Shown: piece by piece, positions 57,596 to 64,000 of the stretch
Numbering within the stretch: the first letter of the stretch is position 1
How the letters are laid out: each line of letters begins with the position of its first letter
NCBI GenBank assembly: GCA_018780145.1
Contig: JADMKA010000087.1
Coordinates: forward strand, 1-64,000
Source: Vitreoscilla sp.
GTDB lineage: Bacteria; Pseudomonadota; Gammaproteobacteria; Burkholderiales; Burkholderiaceae_C
Reading direction: 5' to 3'
Length of the DNA stretch: 64,000 nucleotides
The notes under the pieces: model-generated
What the model was told of the DNA's origin: nothing
The model's database searches: none
Seen by the model: only the letters and a program-made list of their open reading frames with translations
Position numbers and translations under genes: made by a program

Positions 57596-59065
57596 TCAAC
57601 GCGGGACGAAGAAGGTCGATTTCTCGCGCTGCACGACAGGCGAAGTGCGCGCGCTGTCGACCAGGCTCACCTCGAACTGCACTGGCACCGATTGCCCCAG
57701 CAGGGACTGGGCTGCGCTGTTCGGCAGGCGCAGGCTGACAACGACCGCGCTGATGCCTACCGGCGGCGCGCTGACCTCCGCAGGCGGCACCTCAAGGCCG
57801 GGAATGCCCCGGGCGCTGATGCGGTAGGTCTGCCGCAGTTCGGTGCGGTTCATGATCTGCAGGCGGTACACGTTCTCGATGGCCCCATCTTCGACAACCC
57901 GGGCCAACGCGCCGCGGTCCTTCACCACGTCGACCTGGAACGGGCTGCGCATGACCACGCTGGCGGCAAAGGCCACGCTGGCGGCCGACAGCAGGCTGCC
58001 GTAGATCAGCACACGCGGGCGCAGGGCACGCTTGAACATCTGCAGCTTCGACCAACCATGCACCACGCCGTTTTCAGTGGAGTAGCGGATCAGGCCCTTC
58101 GGGTAGCCCATCTTGTCCATCACATCGTTGCAGACATCGATGCAGGCTGAGCAGCCGATGCACTCGTTCTGAAGGCCGTCCCGGATATCGATGCCAGTGG
58201 GGCAGACCTGCACGCACAGGGTGCAGTCGATGCAGTCGCCCAGCCCCTGGGAAGCCGCGCTCGCCTTGCGTGAGCGCGAGCCGCGCGGGTCACCACGTGC
58301 GCTGTCGTAGGTGATGATCAACGAATCCTTGTCGATCAAGGCACTCTGGAAGCGGGCGTAGGGGCACATGTACTTGCACATCTGCTCGCGCAGGTAGCCC
58401 GCATTGCCATAGGTGGCGGCACCGTAGAACAGGATCCAGAAGGCGTTCCAGGGCGTCACCGTCAAGGTCAACACCGCCTGGCTCAGCTCGCGGATCGGCG
58501 TGAAGTAACCAACGAAGCTGAAGCCGGTGAACAGCCCGATGGTCACCCAGGCGACTTGCGTCGCACCCTTGCGGGCGACTTTCTCGGCCGACCATGCGGC
58601 CTGATCCAGCCGCATGCGGGCGATGCGGTCGCCCTCGAACCTGCGTTCGACCCACATGAAGATCTCGGTGTACACGGTCTGCGGACAGGTGTAGCCACAC
58701 CACAGGCGGCCCGCCACCGCGGTGAAGAAGAACAAGGCCAGCGCCGAGAGCACGAGCAAAGCCGCCAGGAAGATCAAGTCCTGCGGATAGAGCACCAGGC
58801 CGAGGATGTAGAAGCGTTGCGCCTCCAGGTCGAACAGCAGCGCCTGGCGGCCATCCCACAGCAGCCAGGGCATGCCGTAGAACAGCAACTGCGTGAGCCA
58901 GACGAAGGTCCAGCGCCAGGTGGCGAACCAGCCCTTCACCGCCCGCGGGTAGATGTCGGGCTGCTTCTGGACCATCGAAACGAGCTGCGTGCCGTCGTCC
59001 GGGTCATCAGCACTGGCGATCGGCCGGATCGGGATGACGGTGCGCGATGGGGCTTCTCGGGTCAC
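57596..59065 (-). CDS. ccoG: CcoG/FixG-type cytochrome c oxidase accessory protein
   Basis: CcoG is a membrane 4Fe-4S protein needed for copper delivery to cbb3 oxidase; it reduces Cu(II) to Cu(I). The 489-residue protein has four or five membrane helices, the conserved AVAGRLWCGYTCPQTVYTE and REQMCKYMCPYAR segments, two ferredoxin 4Fe-4S motifs (CIDCTLCVQVCPTG and CIGCSACIDVCNDV) and a C-terminal Ig-like FixG domain. I chose GTG 59065, 22 bp after the preceding gene; ATG 58975 is a possible shorter start. No ccoNOPQ genes adjoin it, which is unusual, and it instead follows a DUF2249 gene. Confidence 0.92.
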   Translation of the reverse strand: MTREAPSRTVIPIRPIASADDPDDGTQLVSMVQKQPDIYPRAVKGWFATWRWTFVWLTQLLFYGMPWLLWDGRQALLFDLEAQRFYILGLVLYPQDLIFLAALLVLSALALFFFTAVAGRLWCGYTCPQTVYTEIFMWVERRFEGDRIARMRLDQAAWSAEKVARKGATQVAWVTIGLFTGFSFVGYFTPIRELSQAVLTLTVTPWNAFWILFYGAATYGNAGYLREQMCKYMCPYARFQSALIDKDSLIITYDSARGDPRGSRSRKASAASQGLGDCIDCTLCVQVCPTGIDIRDGLQNECIGCSACIDVCNDVMDKMGYPKGLIRYSTENGVVHGWSKLQMFKRALRPRVLIYGSLLSAASVAFAASVVMRSPFQVDVVKDRGALARVVEDGAIENVYRLQIMNRTELRQTYRISARGIPGLEVPPAEVSAPPVGISAVVVSLRLPNSAAQSLLGQSVPVQFEVSLVDSARTSPVVQREKSTFFVPR

Positions 59066-59087
59066 GGGCTCGCACTCACGCGCCAGC

Positions 59088-59393
59088 TCAGCCGCAGCAC
59101 GCGCCGCCGGAGCAGCACGAGCCGGCGCTCGGCGGAGTGGCCTTGGCGCCGACACGCGTGATCTGCACCCGCCAGGCATGGGGGCCGGATTCCAGCGATG
59201 CCCACTCGAATTGGCCGAAGGCCCGGTCATCGAGCTGGAAACGCAACGGCTGCGGGTCATGGTCGTTGACCAGTTGCATCGACTGCCCCGGTTGCAGGGC
59301 ATCGAAGCAGCCGAAGACCAAGGCATGCCGATCGCGCGGTGCGATCGTGCGCAGGTCGATGGCGGCGGGCGTTGCGGTGGCGAGAGTGGGCAT
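59088..59393 (-). CDS. DUF2249 protein with cysteine-rich C-terminus
   Basis: A 101-residue protein with the DUF2249 core (about residues 10-80: IDLRTIAPRDRHALVFGCFDAL, LQPGQSMQLVNDHDPQPL, FEWASLESGPHAWRVQI), a TusA-like small alpha/beta fold. It ends in SCCSGGACCG, four cysteines in ten residues, a possible metal or persulfide site. DUF2249 genes often lie near denitrification and NO-stress genes; that is family knowledge, not proof. It is the first gene of a two-gene operon with ccoG. Confidence 0.85.
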   Translation of the reverse strand: MPTLATATPAAIDLRTIAPRDRHALVFGCFDALQPGQSMQLVNDHDPQPLRFQLDDRAFGQFEWASLESGPHAWRVQITRVGAKATPPSAGSCCSGGACCG

Positions 59394-59566: not shown

Positions 59567-61474
59567 TCAGCGTGGCTTCGAAGCCACCTGCGGCGCCGCC
59601 GGCAGGAAGGCATCGGTGAAGCACAATGCCTCGCCCATGCCGTGGGCCAGGAAATCCGGCACGGCCGCCTCGACCATCTTCATCGAGCCGCAGACGTAGA
59701 CCTCAAAGCCGCGCAGGTCGGCGAAGTCGGCGAGCATCGCCTCGTGCACCAGGCCCGAGCGACCGCCCCAGTCTTCGCCAGCATGCGACAGCACCGGTAC
59801 AAAGTGAAAGTTCGCGTGCTCGCGTTGCCAGGCCTGGGCGAGATCGAGCGCGTACAGGTCGCCCCGCTGGCGCACGCCCCAGTACAGCCACATCGGCCGC
59901 GTCAGGCCGCGTGCGAACGCATCCTCGACGATGCTCTTGATCGGCGCGAAGCCCGTCGCCCCGGCAACAAACAGCACCGGGTGCGTGCTCTCGCGCAGCG
60001 TGAAGTCACCCAGTGGACCCTCGAAGCGCAGGGTGTCTCCGACACGCATCTCGGTGAACACATGGCCGGTGAATCGCCCACCCGGAATGCGCCGCACATG
60101 CAGTTCGATATGGTCATTGCACTGCGGCGGGTTGGCGAACGAAAACGCGCGGCGCTGGCCGTCGTCCAGCAACACGTTCAGGTACTGGCCGGCTTTGAAG
60201 GCGATGCGCTTCGCGCCGGGCAGCGACAGGCGCAGCCGCACCAGGTCGTGGGTCAGGTGCTCGATGCGCTCGACCCGTGCCACCTGTTCTGCCATCGGCG
60301 GTCGGAGCGGCCCGCTGCTGGCTTCGAGCTCGATCACCAGGTCGCCCAGCGGCCGGGCACAGCACATCAGCGCCTGGCCTTGGGCGCGCCTGGCGTCTGT
60401 CAACACCACGGGCTGATAGGCACCGTGATCGACACGGCCCTGCAGCACCGTGCACAGGCAGACACCGCAACCGCCGTTGCGGCACTCATAGGGCAGCGCC
60501 AGGCCCTCGCGCAACCCTGCGTCGAGGATGGTCTCGCCCGCACGCACCGAGAATCGTGCATCGCCGGGGTGCACCGCGACCCGGTGGGTGCCCCCCACAC
60601 CTCGGCGCCAGCGCGGCGGAAGCCAAGGCAGGGCCACCAGCAGCGCGGTGCCGGCGCCCGCCAGCAGCCACACCTGCGTCAGTGGCCAGGCGTACAACAA
60701 GGGCAGCAGCGGCAGGTAGAACCAGTCGAACGCCAAGGTGCCGGCGGCCAGCGACAGATCGGCCGCACCGCCCTGGCTGAGGGCCGGCCGTACCAGCGAC
60801 AACGCCAGCAGCGTCAACGCCAGGCTGGCCATGATGGCCCGCGGCGGGCTCGTCCTCGCCTTCGGCACGCGCTGCACATGCACCCACAGCAGCAGCAGCA
60901 CCAACAGCGGCACGCCGATGTGCATGAATGCCAGCAGCGAGAACAGGCGGTCGTTGACGCTGCTGGCGTAGATGAAGTTGCGCATCAGCGCGCCACCGAA
61001 GCTGGGCAGCGCATCGAGCCACTCGAACACCGCGACGATGACGAACTGCGCGAGCCGGTCCCACGGCAGCATGTAGCCGTTGATGCCCGAGACGTAGACG
61101 AGCCAGATCAGGGCCACGCCGGTGAGCCACGAGAACCAGCGGAAGCCTCGCATGCGGTCGAATGCGAAGTGGCGCAGCATGTGCAGCAGCATCACCAGCA
61201 CCATCGCGTCCGACGCGTAGCGGTGCACGCTGCGCAGGATGCCACCCGCGAACCACTGGCGATGCGTCAACGCCTCGACCGAGTCATGCGCACCGGCCAC
61301 GCCGGTCTCGAAGAAGGCATAGAGATACAAGCCGCTGCCGGCAACGATCCAGAACAGGAAGAAGCCGATCTCGCCCAGGTGGTAGAGCGGGTTCAGGCGG
61401 TCGCCGAAGGCCCGGTTGAACAGCGCCTCGACGTGCATGAACAACCAGCGCAGCGACGCCTGGATTCGCGCCAT
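59567..61474 (-). CDS. fusion protein: diheme cytochrome b - 2Fe-2S ferredoxin - FAD/NAD(P)H reductase
   Basis: A 635-residue protein of three modules. Residues 30-205 form the four-helix cytochrome b N-terminal domain with all four heme ligands: H84 and H98 in helix two, H185 and H199 in helix four, each pair 14 apart, plus GYMLPW at 133-138. Two more helices lie at about 213-232 and 250-284. A plant-type ferredoxin follows (C331, C336, C339, C371) and then a ferredoxin-NADP reductase-like part with the FAD motif RAFSFANP (442-449), NAD loop VAGATGFAP (503-511) and CGSMKM (595-600). The bc1 PEWY quinol motif region is absent. Electrons would flow NAD(P)H, FAD, 2Fe-2S, hemes b. The start ATG 61474 overlaps the oxidase-like stop by one base. 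Confidence 0.88.
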   Translation of the reverse strand: MARIQASLRWLFMHVEALFNRAFGDRLNPLYHLGEIGFFLFWIVAGSGLYLYAFFETGVAGAHDSVEALTHRQWFAGGILRSVHRYASDAMVLVMLLHMLRHFAFDRMRGFRWFSWLTGVALIWLVYVSGINGYMLPWDRLAQFVIVAVFEWLDALPSFGGALMRNFIYASSVNDRLFSLLAFMHIGVPLLVLLLLWVHVQRVPKARTSPPRAIMASLALTLLALSLVRPALSQGGAADLSLAAGTLAFDWFYLPLLPLLYAWPLTQVWLLAGAGTALLVALPWLPPRWRRGVGGTHRVAVHPGDARFSVRAGETILDAGLREGLALPYECRNGGCGVCLCTVLQGRVDHGAYQPVVLTDARRAQGQALMCCARPLGDLVIELEASSGPLRPPMAEQVARVERIEHLTHDLVRLRLSLPGAKRIAFKAGQYLNVLLDDGQRRAFSFANPPQCNDHIELHVRRIPGGRFTGHVFTEMRVGDTLRFEGPLGDFTLRESTHPVLFVAGATGFAPIKSIVEDAFARGLTRPMWLYWGVRQRGDLYALDLAQAWQREHANFHFVPVLSHAGEDWGGRSGLVHEAMLADFADLRGFEVYVCGSMKMVEAAVPDFLAHGMGEALCFTDAFLPAAPQVASKPR

Positions 61475-62907
61475 CACGCGTGGGCCACCATCGCCGCCTG
61501 GCGCATCGAGCGGATCACGACCGCCACGAACAGCAGGCCGCCCAGGATCGCGATGGCACCACCCAGGCCCATCAGGCCCATGCCGGCGATCTCGCCGGTG
61601 CTGCGCAGCACCTGCTCGGCCCCGGCCACCTTGCGCTGCACGCCGTAACCACCCGACCAGACCAGACCGACGATGTGCATCAGCTGCCCCGCACCGTAGA
61701 GCCACGGCTGCAGCGTGGCCAGACGACCCTGCGGCGCCCCATAGCCCAGTTGCGGAAGCAGGTGAAACACCAGCCCCATCAACGCCAGTGTCACGCCGAC
61801 GATGCAGCCGTGGTAGTGCGCCGGGATGCGCACGTTGCTGCCGGCGATGAACACGCCGATCAGCCCGCCAGCGGCGAACAGCAGCACCGACGACAGCAAC
61901 GCGGCCCGCAGCGGCGCACCAGCGGCCCGCGGCGCTGGCGCCCGCGCCGACCCGACCACGACCGCAAGACCGATCGGCACGATCGCCACCCCGCCGCCCA
62001 GGCGCATCGCCCAGGTCAGCAGGCTGCGGTGCTCGACCGAGGCGATGTCGTACGCCAGGTAGGCATAGGGCGTGACGAACACCGCGAGCAGTGCCCCGGC
62101 CAGCATCAGCAGCGTGACGCGCGGGCTCAGTGGCACCGGCGCGCCGGTGGCACTGGCGAGCCAGAGCCAGCCGACCAGCATCAGCAGTGTCCAGGTGAAC
62201 TGCAGCGCGTGGCCGCCGCCCCAGAACAGGATCTCGTAGTAGGCGTTGCCGGCCAGCGTCGCCGGCACGGCGGCATACGACGCGGCGAAAGCCGCGATCG
62301 CCACCGCCGCGGACACGGCCGCCGCGTTGAGCCCGAAGCGCAGCGCGCCTTCACCTCCGAAGCGCACGCCCAGCGGCGGCGCGGTGAACAGGCTGCGCAA
62401 CACCAGCAGCACCGCGCCGGCACCGAAGGCCAGCAGCCCGGCCAAGAACAAGGGCCCGTCGAGCACCGGAATGTAGTTCGCCATCACCGCCGGCGCGCGG
62501 GCGACGAAGGGAGCCAGCGCCATCAGCCCCGTGCCGACCGAACACAGCCCCAGCGCCGCCCTGCCCCACGCCGCGCCGCGCGTCGAGCCGTTCAGGCTCC
62601 ACAGCAAGCCGGCCACGGCAACGAACCAGACCAGGACCGACAGATCCACATGCACGACGAGCGCGACGCGAAAGAAATCGGCCACCGGCAGCCACTGGTT
62701 CAGCCCCGGTGTGCGCGACAGCACCAGCAGCACCGAGAACAACCCGGAGCCCACCAGCGCGAGCATCGCCAGCGCCAACCAGCCGCGTGCCAGTGTGCGC
62801 TGCGCGCCCTGCGGCACGGCGAGCGAATAGTGCGACAGGCGCGCCGGTGCGGGCGTCGGGCCGACAAGGGCCACGCCGATCGTGGGGGCCTGCATGGAGG
62901 TGTTCAT
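61474..62907 (-). CDS. divergent heme-copper oxidase/NO reductase-like subunit I
   Basis: A 477-residue protein with about 12 membrane helices that aligns by eye with heme-copper oxidase subunit I. Low-spin heme ligands are H86 (VVHVDLSVLVW) and H366, and the high-spin heme ligand is H364, in AHYHGCIV, equal to the AHFH of helix X. H233 (FWGGGHALQF) fits the first CuB/FeB ligand in helix VI. The His-His pair expected in helix VII is missing: the matching region, about residues 280-292, has Tyr, Asp and Glu but no His. So the distal metal site is incomplete. Start ATG 62907 overlaps the previous stop. Possible roles are NO reduction or pure electron transfer; unproven. Confidence 0.75.
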   Translation of the reverse strand: MNTSMQAPTIGVALVGPTPAPARLSHYSLAVPQGAQRTLARGWLALAMLALVGSGLFSVLLVLSRTPGLNQWLPVADFFRVALVVHVDLSVLVWFVAVAGLLWSLNGSTRGAAWGRAALGLCSVGTGLMALAPFVARAPAVMANYIPVLDGPLFLAGLLAFGAGAVLLVLRSLFTAPPLGVRFGGEGALRFGLNAAAVSAAVAIAAFAASYAAVPATLAGNAYYEILFWGGGHALQFTWTLLMLVGWLWLASATGAPVPLSPRVTLLMLAGALLAVFVTPYAYLAYDIASVEHRSLLTWAMRLGGGVAIVPIGLAVVVGSARAPAPRAAGAPLRAALLSSVLLFAAGGLIGVFIAGSNVRIPAHYHGCIVGVTLALMGLVFHLLPQLGYGAPQGRLATLQPWLYGAGQLMHIVGLVWSGGYGVQRKVAGAEQVLRSTGEIAGMGLMGLGGAIAILGGLLFVAVVIRSMRQAAMVAHA

Positions 62908-63422
62908 TGCAATGTGATGCCGCCTTTCGCGGCGTCGAAGTCGATCACGAGAATGTGGGCCGGTGCCAGCGTCACGGTGGCCTCGCGCGCATGGTCGAAT
63001 CCGCCCGGGCCTGGGCTGTCCTTCATGCGAACCGCGATGCGATGCTCGCCAGCAGCCAGCTGCACCCGGTGGTAGACCGACGAGGCGCCGTCCTTGGACA
63101 GGCCCGAAGGCGCGGCCGAATGGCGATAGGCCGGCTGGCCATCGACATCGAGCTCGACCACCACCGGTGCCCGCTCGCGTGGGCACGACATCGGCGCGCG
63201 CATGTTGGGTGGCAGCTTCGCGAGCTCGGCCGGCGTCAGCTGCCGGCAAGGCGAGACCACCTGGCCGTGGTGTGTGAAGCTGAGCTTGATCAGTGCCTGG
63301 TCCGCGGCGAGATGGCGGTACGGCGGCCACTGCGAGAACACGCCGACCAGCAGTGCGAACAGGCCGTACAGCAAGACTTGGCCGAGCCAGGCGAGCGGGC
63401 GGATGCTTCGGCGCTCAGCCAT
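62904..63422 (-). CDS. membrane-anchored periplasmic protein of the oxidase-like operon, unknown
   Basis: A 172-residue protein with one N-terminal membrane helix (about residues 10-29, VLLYGLFALLVGVFSQWP) and a periplasmic, probably Ig-like beta domain (VVVELDVDGQPAYRHS, VQLAAGEHRIAVRMKD, ILVIDFDA). HHGQVVSPCR and MSCPRER give two cysteines and a His pair that could bind metal. It overlaps the upstream Fe-S gene by eight bases and the oxidase-like gene by four, so it is surely part of the same unit. Family not recognised. Confidence 0.7.
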   Translation of the reverse strand: MAERRSIRPLAWLGQVLLYGLFALLVGVFSQWPPYRHLAADQALIKLSFTHHGQVVSPCRQLTPAELAKLPPNMRAPMSCPRERAPVVVELDVDGQPAYRHSAAPSGLSKDGASSVYHRVQLAAGEHRIAVRMKDSPGPGGFDHAREATVTLAPAHILVIDFDAAKGGITLQ

Positions 63423-64000
63423 GGTCAGCAAGGGTCTCGGGAACGGTCGGGGCCAGGCTGCGAGCCGCGTCGCGCAGTTGATCCAGCGCACGGGCGAGCG
63501 CGAACGGGTCACTGGCGACGGGCCACACAAGCTGCAGCCGCTCGCGCGGCACGTTCGCACGCAGGTGCGGCTCACGCAGGCCAAGCAGGCGCTCCTCGGT
63601 CCAGCGCTGGCCGAGGCGGAAGGCGCAGTCGCCATCGCGGCAACCGGTCACGAGCACGCCGGCGGCGCCTTGGCGCAGCGCGTACTCGATGAACGAGGGC
63701 GGCAGCTGTCCCGTGCAGATCAGGCCCAGCACGAGCACGTCGCCGCCTGCCAGCGCAGCCACCGTGGGGCCCTGGTCGCAGCCGATGACGACGAACTTGT
63801 GCTCGGCCTTCAGCCGCACCAGGCCGGCGTCGAGTTGCCGCCGCAGGGCGTCGATGGGTTGCTGCGGCATGTCGATGCCGGTCAGCAGCCTGGCACCGCT
63901 GCGGAACGGTGTCGACGACGGGCAGGCCCCGACACAAATGCCGCAACCCGCGCACAGGTCGGCGTCGACCTGCGCGAGCTGACGGATCGGCCGCCCGGGC
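63415..64000 (-). CDS. 4Fe-4S / MvhD-type iron-sulfur protein (5' end outside window)
   Basis: The visible 194 codons are the C-terminal part. A ferredoxin motif (LCAGCGICVGACPSS) at about 63915-63960 is followed by an MvhD domain (PF02662-like): FVVIGCDQGPTVAAL, VLVLGLICTGQLPPSFIEYAL and GVLVTGCRDGDCAFRLGQRW. In methanogens MvhD passes electrons from a hydrogenase to heterodisulfide reductase; in bacteria it is found with various flavin or Fe-S partners. Here it heads, or is upstream in, the operon of the oxidase-like and cytochrome b fusion proteins. The start and any further domains lie beyond the window. Confidence 0.85.
   Translation of the reverse strand, partial: PGRPIRQLAQVDADLCAGCGICVGACPSSTPFRSGARLLTGIDMPQQPIDALRRQLDAGLVRLKAEHKFVVIGCDQGPTVAALAGGDVLVLGLICTGQLPPSFIEYALRQGAAGVLVTGCRDGDCAFRLGQRWTEERLLGLREPHLRANVPRERLQLVWPVASDPFALARALDQLRDAARSLAPTVPETLADHG

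Follow-up and report, generated by a model that had tools for sequence, protein, structure and literature searches.

What do four overlapping genes at the end of a 64,000-base stretch of Vitreoscilla sp. DNA contribute to the cell, given that they encode two cytochrome b fusions, a periplasmic protein and a relative of oxidase subunit I? The stretch, referred to as the window, comprises bases 1–64000 of the 77,970-base contig JADMKA010000087.1, and the initial annotation, made from the window, read the four minus-strand genes (here A, B, C and D) as a novel, independent membrane redox system with the oxidase-like protein C at its electron-accepting end. The operon is, however, truncated by the window end, while the contig runs on to position 77,970. 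Once the contig past the window was read, the genes upstream of A proved to be an NO (nitric oxide) reductase of the eNOR type with a CuA subunit, together with ctaB and Sco, which largely removes the basis of that reading, and A–D as an independent redox complex was rejected. Judged by its conserved residues, the operon that carries A–D at its end is an eNOR-type NO reductase operon and not one of the canonical cNOR or qNOR types, and A–D very probably constitute its accessory end. Although eNOR itself is already known, the conserved accessory set and the family of C remain unusual.

The operon runs in the order small membrane open reading frame (ORF), CuA subunit II, subunit I, ctaB, sco, A, B, C and D, with A–D forming its promoter-distal half. 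In the following list, positions past 64000 are contig positions beyond the window, and coordinates of locus L006 are converted to window positions by adding 59000.

69306–70322 (L006:10306–11322), plus strand: COX15-like gene, divergent from the operon
69034–69189 (L006:10034–10189), minus strand: small membrane ORF of 51 amino acids with one helix, unannotated, directly upstream of subunit II
68469–69008, minus strand: CuA subunit II, 179 amino acids, directly upstream of subunit I
66758–68458, minus strand: eNOR subunit I, 566 amino acids, upstream of ctaB
65840–66742, minus strand: ctaB (heme O synthase), upstream of sco
64968–65804, minus strand: sco, upstream of A
63415–64971, minus strand (3' part, 63415–64000, in the window): gene A, 518 amino acids, b6-type diheme cytochrome b with two 4Fe-4S and an FlpD/MvhD domain
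62904–63422, minus strand: gene B, 172 amino acids, periplasmic β-sandwich, a single membrane helix at its N-terminus, two invariant Cys
61474–62907, minus strand: gene C, 477 amino acids, homologue of subunit I with the heme-copper-oxidase fold and without a full CuB site
59567–61474, minus strand: gene D, 635 amino acids, b6-type diheme cytochrome b with 2Fe-2S ferredoxin and FAD/NAD(P)H reductase

The proposal that A–D form a single transcription unit was borne out. The overlaps are exactly 8 bases between A and B (63415–63422), 4 bases between B and C (62904–62907) and 1 base between C and D (61474), and since the median spacing of each of these three pairs among relatives is –4 bp, the coupling of the genes is conserved. 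The description of A as an MvhD-type Fe-S protein was correct with respect to its FlpD domain, but only the end of the gene lies inside the window and the full protein is a cytochrome b-2[4Fe-4S]-FlpD fusion. Likewise, the absence of a CuA subunit holds inside the window, but such a subunit is encoded about 4.5 kb past its end.

The class of the NO reductase was read from its two subunits. The His ligand H69 of subunit I was found in 65 of 66 aligned rows and H231, H280, H281, H385 and H387 in all 66, while the motif GHSSQQ places a Gln (Q235, in at least 97% of these rows) at the position of the oxidase Tyr/Glu after the first CuB His. This Gln is reported to define the eNOR class (PMC8756737), and eNOR genes have been reported from Gallionellaceae (PMC10734462). 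Subunit II belongs to COX2 (Pfam, 2.1e-6) and retains C161, E163, C165, H169 and M172 in at least 97% of 64 rows. With eNOR as described in PMC8756737 the present enzyme shares the six His, the Gln in place of Tyr and a cupredoxin CuA subunit encoded directly upstream; it differs in the additional operon genes ctaB, sco, A, B, C and D, not one of which accompanies subunits I and II at the Thermus locus.

Heme d1 genes near the operon include NirJ, which scored above its curated cut-off, D1-propeller proteins, and siroheme-decarboxylase-type proteins read as NirD/L/G/H. A likely NirS is encoded elsewhere in the genome (C172; 577-amino-acid frame, Cytochrom_D1 match of 456 bits), and the eNOR of subunits I and II would reduce the NO that it forms. 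In our reading of their translations, the seven COX1 matches of the genome are aa3-type subunits, one short piece of an oxidase, two pieces of CcoN, C and eNOR subunit I; subunits of cNOR or qNOR were not seen among them in this assembly, which is 96.5% complete. NosZ gave no match above the cut-off with two models in this genome. With a likely NirS and eNOR and without NosZ above the cut-off, the source organism is possibly a partial denitrifier releasing N2O.

To what extent A–D belong together was assessed in 80 loci kept from 254 relatives of C, all of them found through C; their titles name Pseudomonadota, mostly Burkholderiales and relatives, with some Lysobacterales and other Gammaproteobacteria. 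The co-occurrence of the four families is conserved, B being present in 79, D in 79 and A in 72 of the 80 loci. Subunit I was found on 70 loci (five partial); in the remaining ten, the contig ends on the upstream side within the operon. All eight genes are present in 56 loci, in 52 of them in the order described above and in the other four with the arrangement D-B-A(-B)-C, while ctaB, sco and the COX15-like gene stand alongside eNOR in 67, 74 and 54 of the 80 loci, respectively.

A sample of 300 genomes of the order was searched with thresholds of 1e-10 for C and 1e-60 for subunit I; because these genomes are related, their counts are not independent of one another. There were 24 genomes with C, 23 with subunit I and 23 with both. 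The two genes are located on one contig within about 11 kb in 20 of these 23 genomes and on separate contigs in G030, G126 and G170; in G187, C lies on the opposite strand to subunit I. In the remaining genome, C is represented only by a 39% relative, whose neighbours are CcsA-type genes for cytochrome c assembly. A full-length D is present in 21 genomes, of which 20 belong to the 23 with both C and subunit I, and G153 has D without subunit I; no full-length D was found in G011, G266 and G295.

The picture differs in other lineages of the phylum, where 11 eNOR loci contained subunits I and II and Sco in all cases, ctaB in nine, A together with B in six and a linked C or D in none. Defluviimonas has the series eNOR-ctaB-Sco-A-B without C and D, Thermomicrobium has eNOR and a fusion annotated as heme O synthase, and Thermus has subunits I and II. 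Locus L182 combines subunits II and I with sco, a pair of A-like genes, B, C and a COX15-like gene. In L184, eNOR and C are about 5 kb apart and are separated by CtaA and ABC genes. From these arrangements, A and B look like the older members of the operon and C and D like later additions. As eNOR of other lineages stands with fewer or none of A–D, these genes are seemingly dispensable, and unlikely to be needed, for the NO chemistry itself.

Protein C is a weak match to the COX1 family (E 6e-10). Its AF2 model (pLDDT 85.8) matches heme-copper subunits I over the whole length (Z 28–31, 10–19% identity), with Z 30.8, rmsd 3.4 and 421 aligned residues against 3omi_C and Z 28.3 against 1ehk_A, so that the designation as an oxidase-like subunit I stands as far as fold and family are concerned. 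H86, H233, H364 and H366 are kept in 80 of 80 rows, and the His ligands of the low-spin and high-spin hemes are H86, H364 and H366. However, C does not possess the three-His CuB/FeB site, since H233 is retained and the His pair is missing. The position of the pair is occupied by A282/Y283 in the MAFFT alignment or by V278/T279 in the HMMER alignment against ba3 (our reading); the MAFFT placement is favoured because its spacing of 49–50 residues from H233 is that of subunit I. F237 occupies the active-site position of Tyr, Glu, Gln, Asn or Asp, and the homologues shown have Phe there as well, except for Tyr in L153. Among the homologues outside eNOR operons some have one His near position 283, and none of those shown has a pair there; an HH at 293–294 in a few homologues adjoins the conserved E292/H293 and is situated ten residues past the CuB position, at the start of the next helix in the model. 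Because C has lost the CuB His pair as well as the active-site Tyr/Glu/Gln, it is very probably not a terminal reductase, and the place at the end of an electron path that had been assigned to it is improbable.

In a tree confined to C, its homologues and the subunits I of eNOR, ba3 and aa3 oxidases, C and its homologues formed one clade with 100/100 support, apart from the other three groups; row L198 is a long branch and possibly misplaced. An origin of C as a recent duplicate of eNOR subunit I was rejected in view of the 25% identity and this separate clade. Its closest solved relative by sequence profile is the ba3-type (family B) subunit I (E 2e-11), with which it shares the fold over about 420 residues; it differs from the latter by the missing CuB His pair and cross-linked Tyr and by its own clade.

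Relatives of C also occur elsewhere. In a sample of 398 genomes of the phylum, the C profile matched in 61 and eNOR subunit I was present in 30, of which 29 had a C match distinct from subunit I itself. A gene of the COX15/CtaA family was found in 53 of 57 genomes searched (51 of 55 outside the class). Of these 55 genomes, 24 have a C relative that is located outside eNOR operons and no more than 300 bp from a CtaA with a canonical score. This linkage was seen in 6 of 15 family groups. Genome G560 was left out of the 24 because its C relative adjoins a variant COX15 only, and G431 and G493 have one copy of C beside each type, canonical CtaA and variant COX15. Other neighbours were an ABC-2 transporter, an aa3 operon and DUF420, as well as CcsA/Ccm genes in the case of relatives fused to TPR. 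No relatives of C were found on plasmids. The neighbours of the C relatives point to heme and cytochrome biogenesis rather than to respiration, although a neighbourhood is not proof.

In loci L114, L115, L116 and L117, the C relative carries an extra C-terminal part, which is TPR by Pfam in L114 and alike by eye in the others; CcsA-type genes are found next to it, and CcmA/CcmC genes in three of these loci. In L193, L194, L196 and L197, the C relative is part of a gene run that also comprises CtaA, an MFS transporter and a cupredoxin-like gene, with ctaB nearby and, in three of them, aa3 genes nearby.

The cytochrome b portions of A and D are both of the b6 type with two bis-His heme sites each and are 51% identical, while the soluble ends differ, being 2[4Fe-4S] and FlpD in A and 2Fe-2S, FAD and NAD in D. 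Pfam assigned Cytochrome_B (1.7e-16), Fer4 families and FlpD (1.2e-14) to A, in which H83/97/184/198, the eight ferredoxin Cys and C398/419/444/449 of FlpD are identical in 71 of 71 rows. The Cytochrome_B, Fer2, FAD_binding_6 and NAD_binding_1 domains of D confirm the cytochrome b-ferredoxin-reductase fusion that had been recognized at the outset, and H84/98/185/199 and C331/336/339/371 are invariant in 74 of 74 rows. In comparison with HdrA2/MvhD, the soluble half of A matches HdrA2 in its C-terminal ferredoxin-FlpD part (E 1e-23, well short of the model cut-off) but is fused to a membrane cytochrome b, and no hydrogenase or Hdr (HdrABC) partner gene was found among the 17 cluster proteins to which the scan was confined. 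Protein B has no family in Pfam or NCBIfam, and one of 36 relatives gave a weak family match (E 0.005). C59 and C80 are present in 80 of 80 rows, and the AF2 model (pLDDT 94.6) is a membrane-anchored β-sandwich. Since its fold gave no significant match (best Foldseek E 9.5e-3, best Z 8.9), no function was drawn for B.

We propose that A–D are not a second terminal reductase but accessory proteins, with whose help the heme and copper centres of eNOR would be made, reduced or inserted. D, with NAD(P)H, FAD, 2Fe-2S and two b hemes, and A, with 4Fe-4S/FlpD and two b hemes, would move electrons from the cytoplasm across the membrane, and B would be their periplasmic partner. C, a copy of an oxidase subunit that binds heme but has no CuB, would work together with a CtaA/COX15-type protein, as heme holder or redox partner. 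Taken as a whole, the explanation of A–D as accessory maturation genes of an eNOR operon is in our view evenly balanced between being right and wrong. Since heme A synthase is reported to be O2-dependent (PMC12808453, PMC9145763), heme supply to a low-oxygen enzyme is a real question. A functional parallel is offered by the mitochondrial ferredoxin and ferredoxin reductase Yah1/Arh1, which are reported as electron donors to the heme A synthase Cox15 (PMC7140478): D likewise combines a 2Fe-2S ferredoxin with an NAD(P)H reductase, and its neighbours include heme O synthase and a COX15-like gene, but it is a membrane diheme cytochrome b, and the likeness is one of function only. The proposed kind of role is also that of Sco, Surf1 and CtaM (PMC9145763), and Sco and DUF420 (the CtaM domain) occur in neighbourhoods of C; A–D, in contrast, match none of these, nor CcoG, in Pfam or NCBIfam.

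A–D could instead be extra subunits that feed eNOR and turn it into an NAD(P)H:NO oxidoreductase, in which electrons would pass from NAD(P)H and an FlpD partner through the cytosolic Fe-S modules to the b hemes of D and A and further through B/C to CuA. The conservation of every heme and Fe-S ligand of A and D, the tight coupling of the genes and the occurrence of C together with subunit I in 23 genomes from the order sample, with full-length D in 20 of them, all agree with such a chain. However, CuA subunits usually accept electrons from cytochrome c or cupredoxins, eNOR occurs without A–D in other lineages, relatives of C are found without eNOR, A or D, and B has no recognisable carrier site, so that direct electron supply appears to us a serious possibility that is rather improbable on balance. 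A maturation role of A–D for the heme and copper centres of eNOR is favoured over it, tentatively and at close to an even chance. Several findings nevertheless weigh against maturation. The conserved redox centres of A and D suit a stoichiometric electron donor equally well. D is located outside the run in 5 of the 20 genomes of the order that possess subunit I and D (divergently upstream in G102, G179 and G270, 10–15 kb off in G039 and G118), and in the cultured denitrifier Castellaniella defragrans DSM 12141 (L089:6199–13328) the operon contains B-C-D without gene A, ctaB also being absent from it. One family provides 13 of the 24 CtaA-linked genomes, and 31 of the 55 genomes have no C at a distance of 300 bp or less from a canonical CtaA. 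E292 and H293 of C, conserved in 77 of 80 rows, could serve another metal site, and C may accordingly hold a different metal centre. Finally, the catalytic Glu of the ExxHR motif is replaced by Arg in 48 of 49 rows of the eNOR-linked COX15-like protein, which may not make heme A.

The whole heme-copper fold of C with both heme sites would also permit A–D to be an independent membrane oxidoreductase that ends in C and reduces O2, NO or another oxidant. This we judge to be highly improbable, as every C homologue compared is without the CuB His pair at its position, Phe takes the place of Tyr/Glu/Gln (L153 alone has Tyr) and the operon itself codes for a complete NO reductase. Alternatively, the retained high-spin heme ligand H364, after loss of the copper ligands, could leave a gas-binding heme, which would make C a heme-based sensor or buffer of NO or O2 instead of a part of assembly or electron transfer; C has no signalling domain, however, and its neighbours outside eNOR operons are genes of heme A and cytochrome c biogenesis, and we consider a sensor or buffer very unlikely. 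A wider reading, which is speculative and in our opinion doubtful, is that C represents an unrecognised class with the heme-copper fold that performs no O2 or NO chemistry and works with CtaA/COX15-type enzymes on modified hemes. C together with D, A, B and the altered COX15 (Glu to Arg) would then be a dedicated, possibly oxygen-independent, cofactor-building machine for the NO reductase.

The ExxHR motif was present in 6 of 6 other CtaA compared. At a presumed heme-site His, the eNOR-linked COX15-like protein has Asn in all rows (49 of 49), as we read this stretch, where the alignment is gapped. The second CtaA of the source genome scores higher (242 versus 106 bits). The altered COX15 thus either makes another heme or no longer modifies heme, and because the linked protein is without the catalytic Glu, this eNOR may or may not contain heme A.

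The locus is of interest since eNOR is a little-studied route to N2O, and the conserved accessory genes show what further needs the cells that use it may have. They may also aid annotation, as eNOR subunit I is labelled cytochrome c oxidase in existing records. If C and D serve heme chemistry, they bear on the reductant of bacterial heme A synthase, to our knowledge an open question. They would then equally bear on the entry of modified heme into subunit I, the route of which is described as not known (PMC9145763). The literature search, judged mostly from titles and abstract openings, gave no description of A–D or of the clade without CuB. A 2024 PNAS paper on the diversity of NO reductases may describe eNOR gene clusters, possibly including the present gene set.

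On the far side of the operon, the COX15-like gene is followed by a CRP/FNR-type regulator on the plus strand and then by the heme d1 genes on the minus strand. Downstream of D, one further gene lies on the same strand:

57596–59326, minus strand: CcoG-family gene

CcoG is an assembly factor of heme-copper oxidases. As a part of the system this gene was rejected, a ccoG match being found in 2 of 80 loci at 22–25% identity. Using an FNR consensus taken from general knowledge, 52 of 62 loci were found to have an FNR-like palindrome with at most two mismatches in the 400 bp that precede subunit II, whereas doublet shuffles lead to an expectation of about 8. An ORF of 38–70 amino acids with a hydrophobic stretch, ending within 60 bp of subunit II, was present in 59 of 62 loci, and the twelve that were printed are clearly alike; the 51-amino-acid, one-helix ORF at this place is possibly a candidate small subunit of eNOR.

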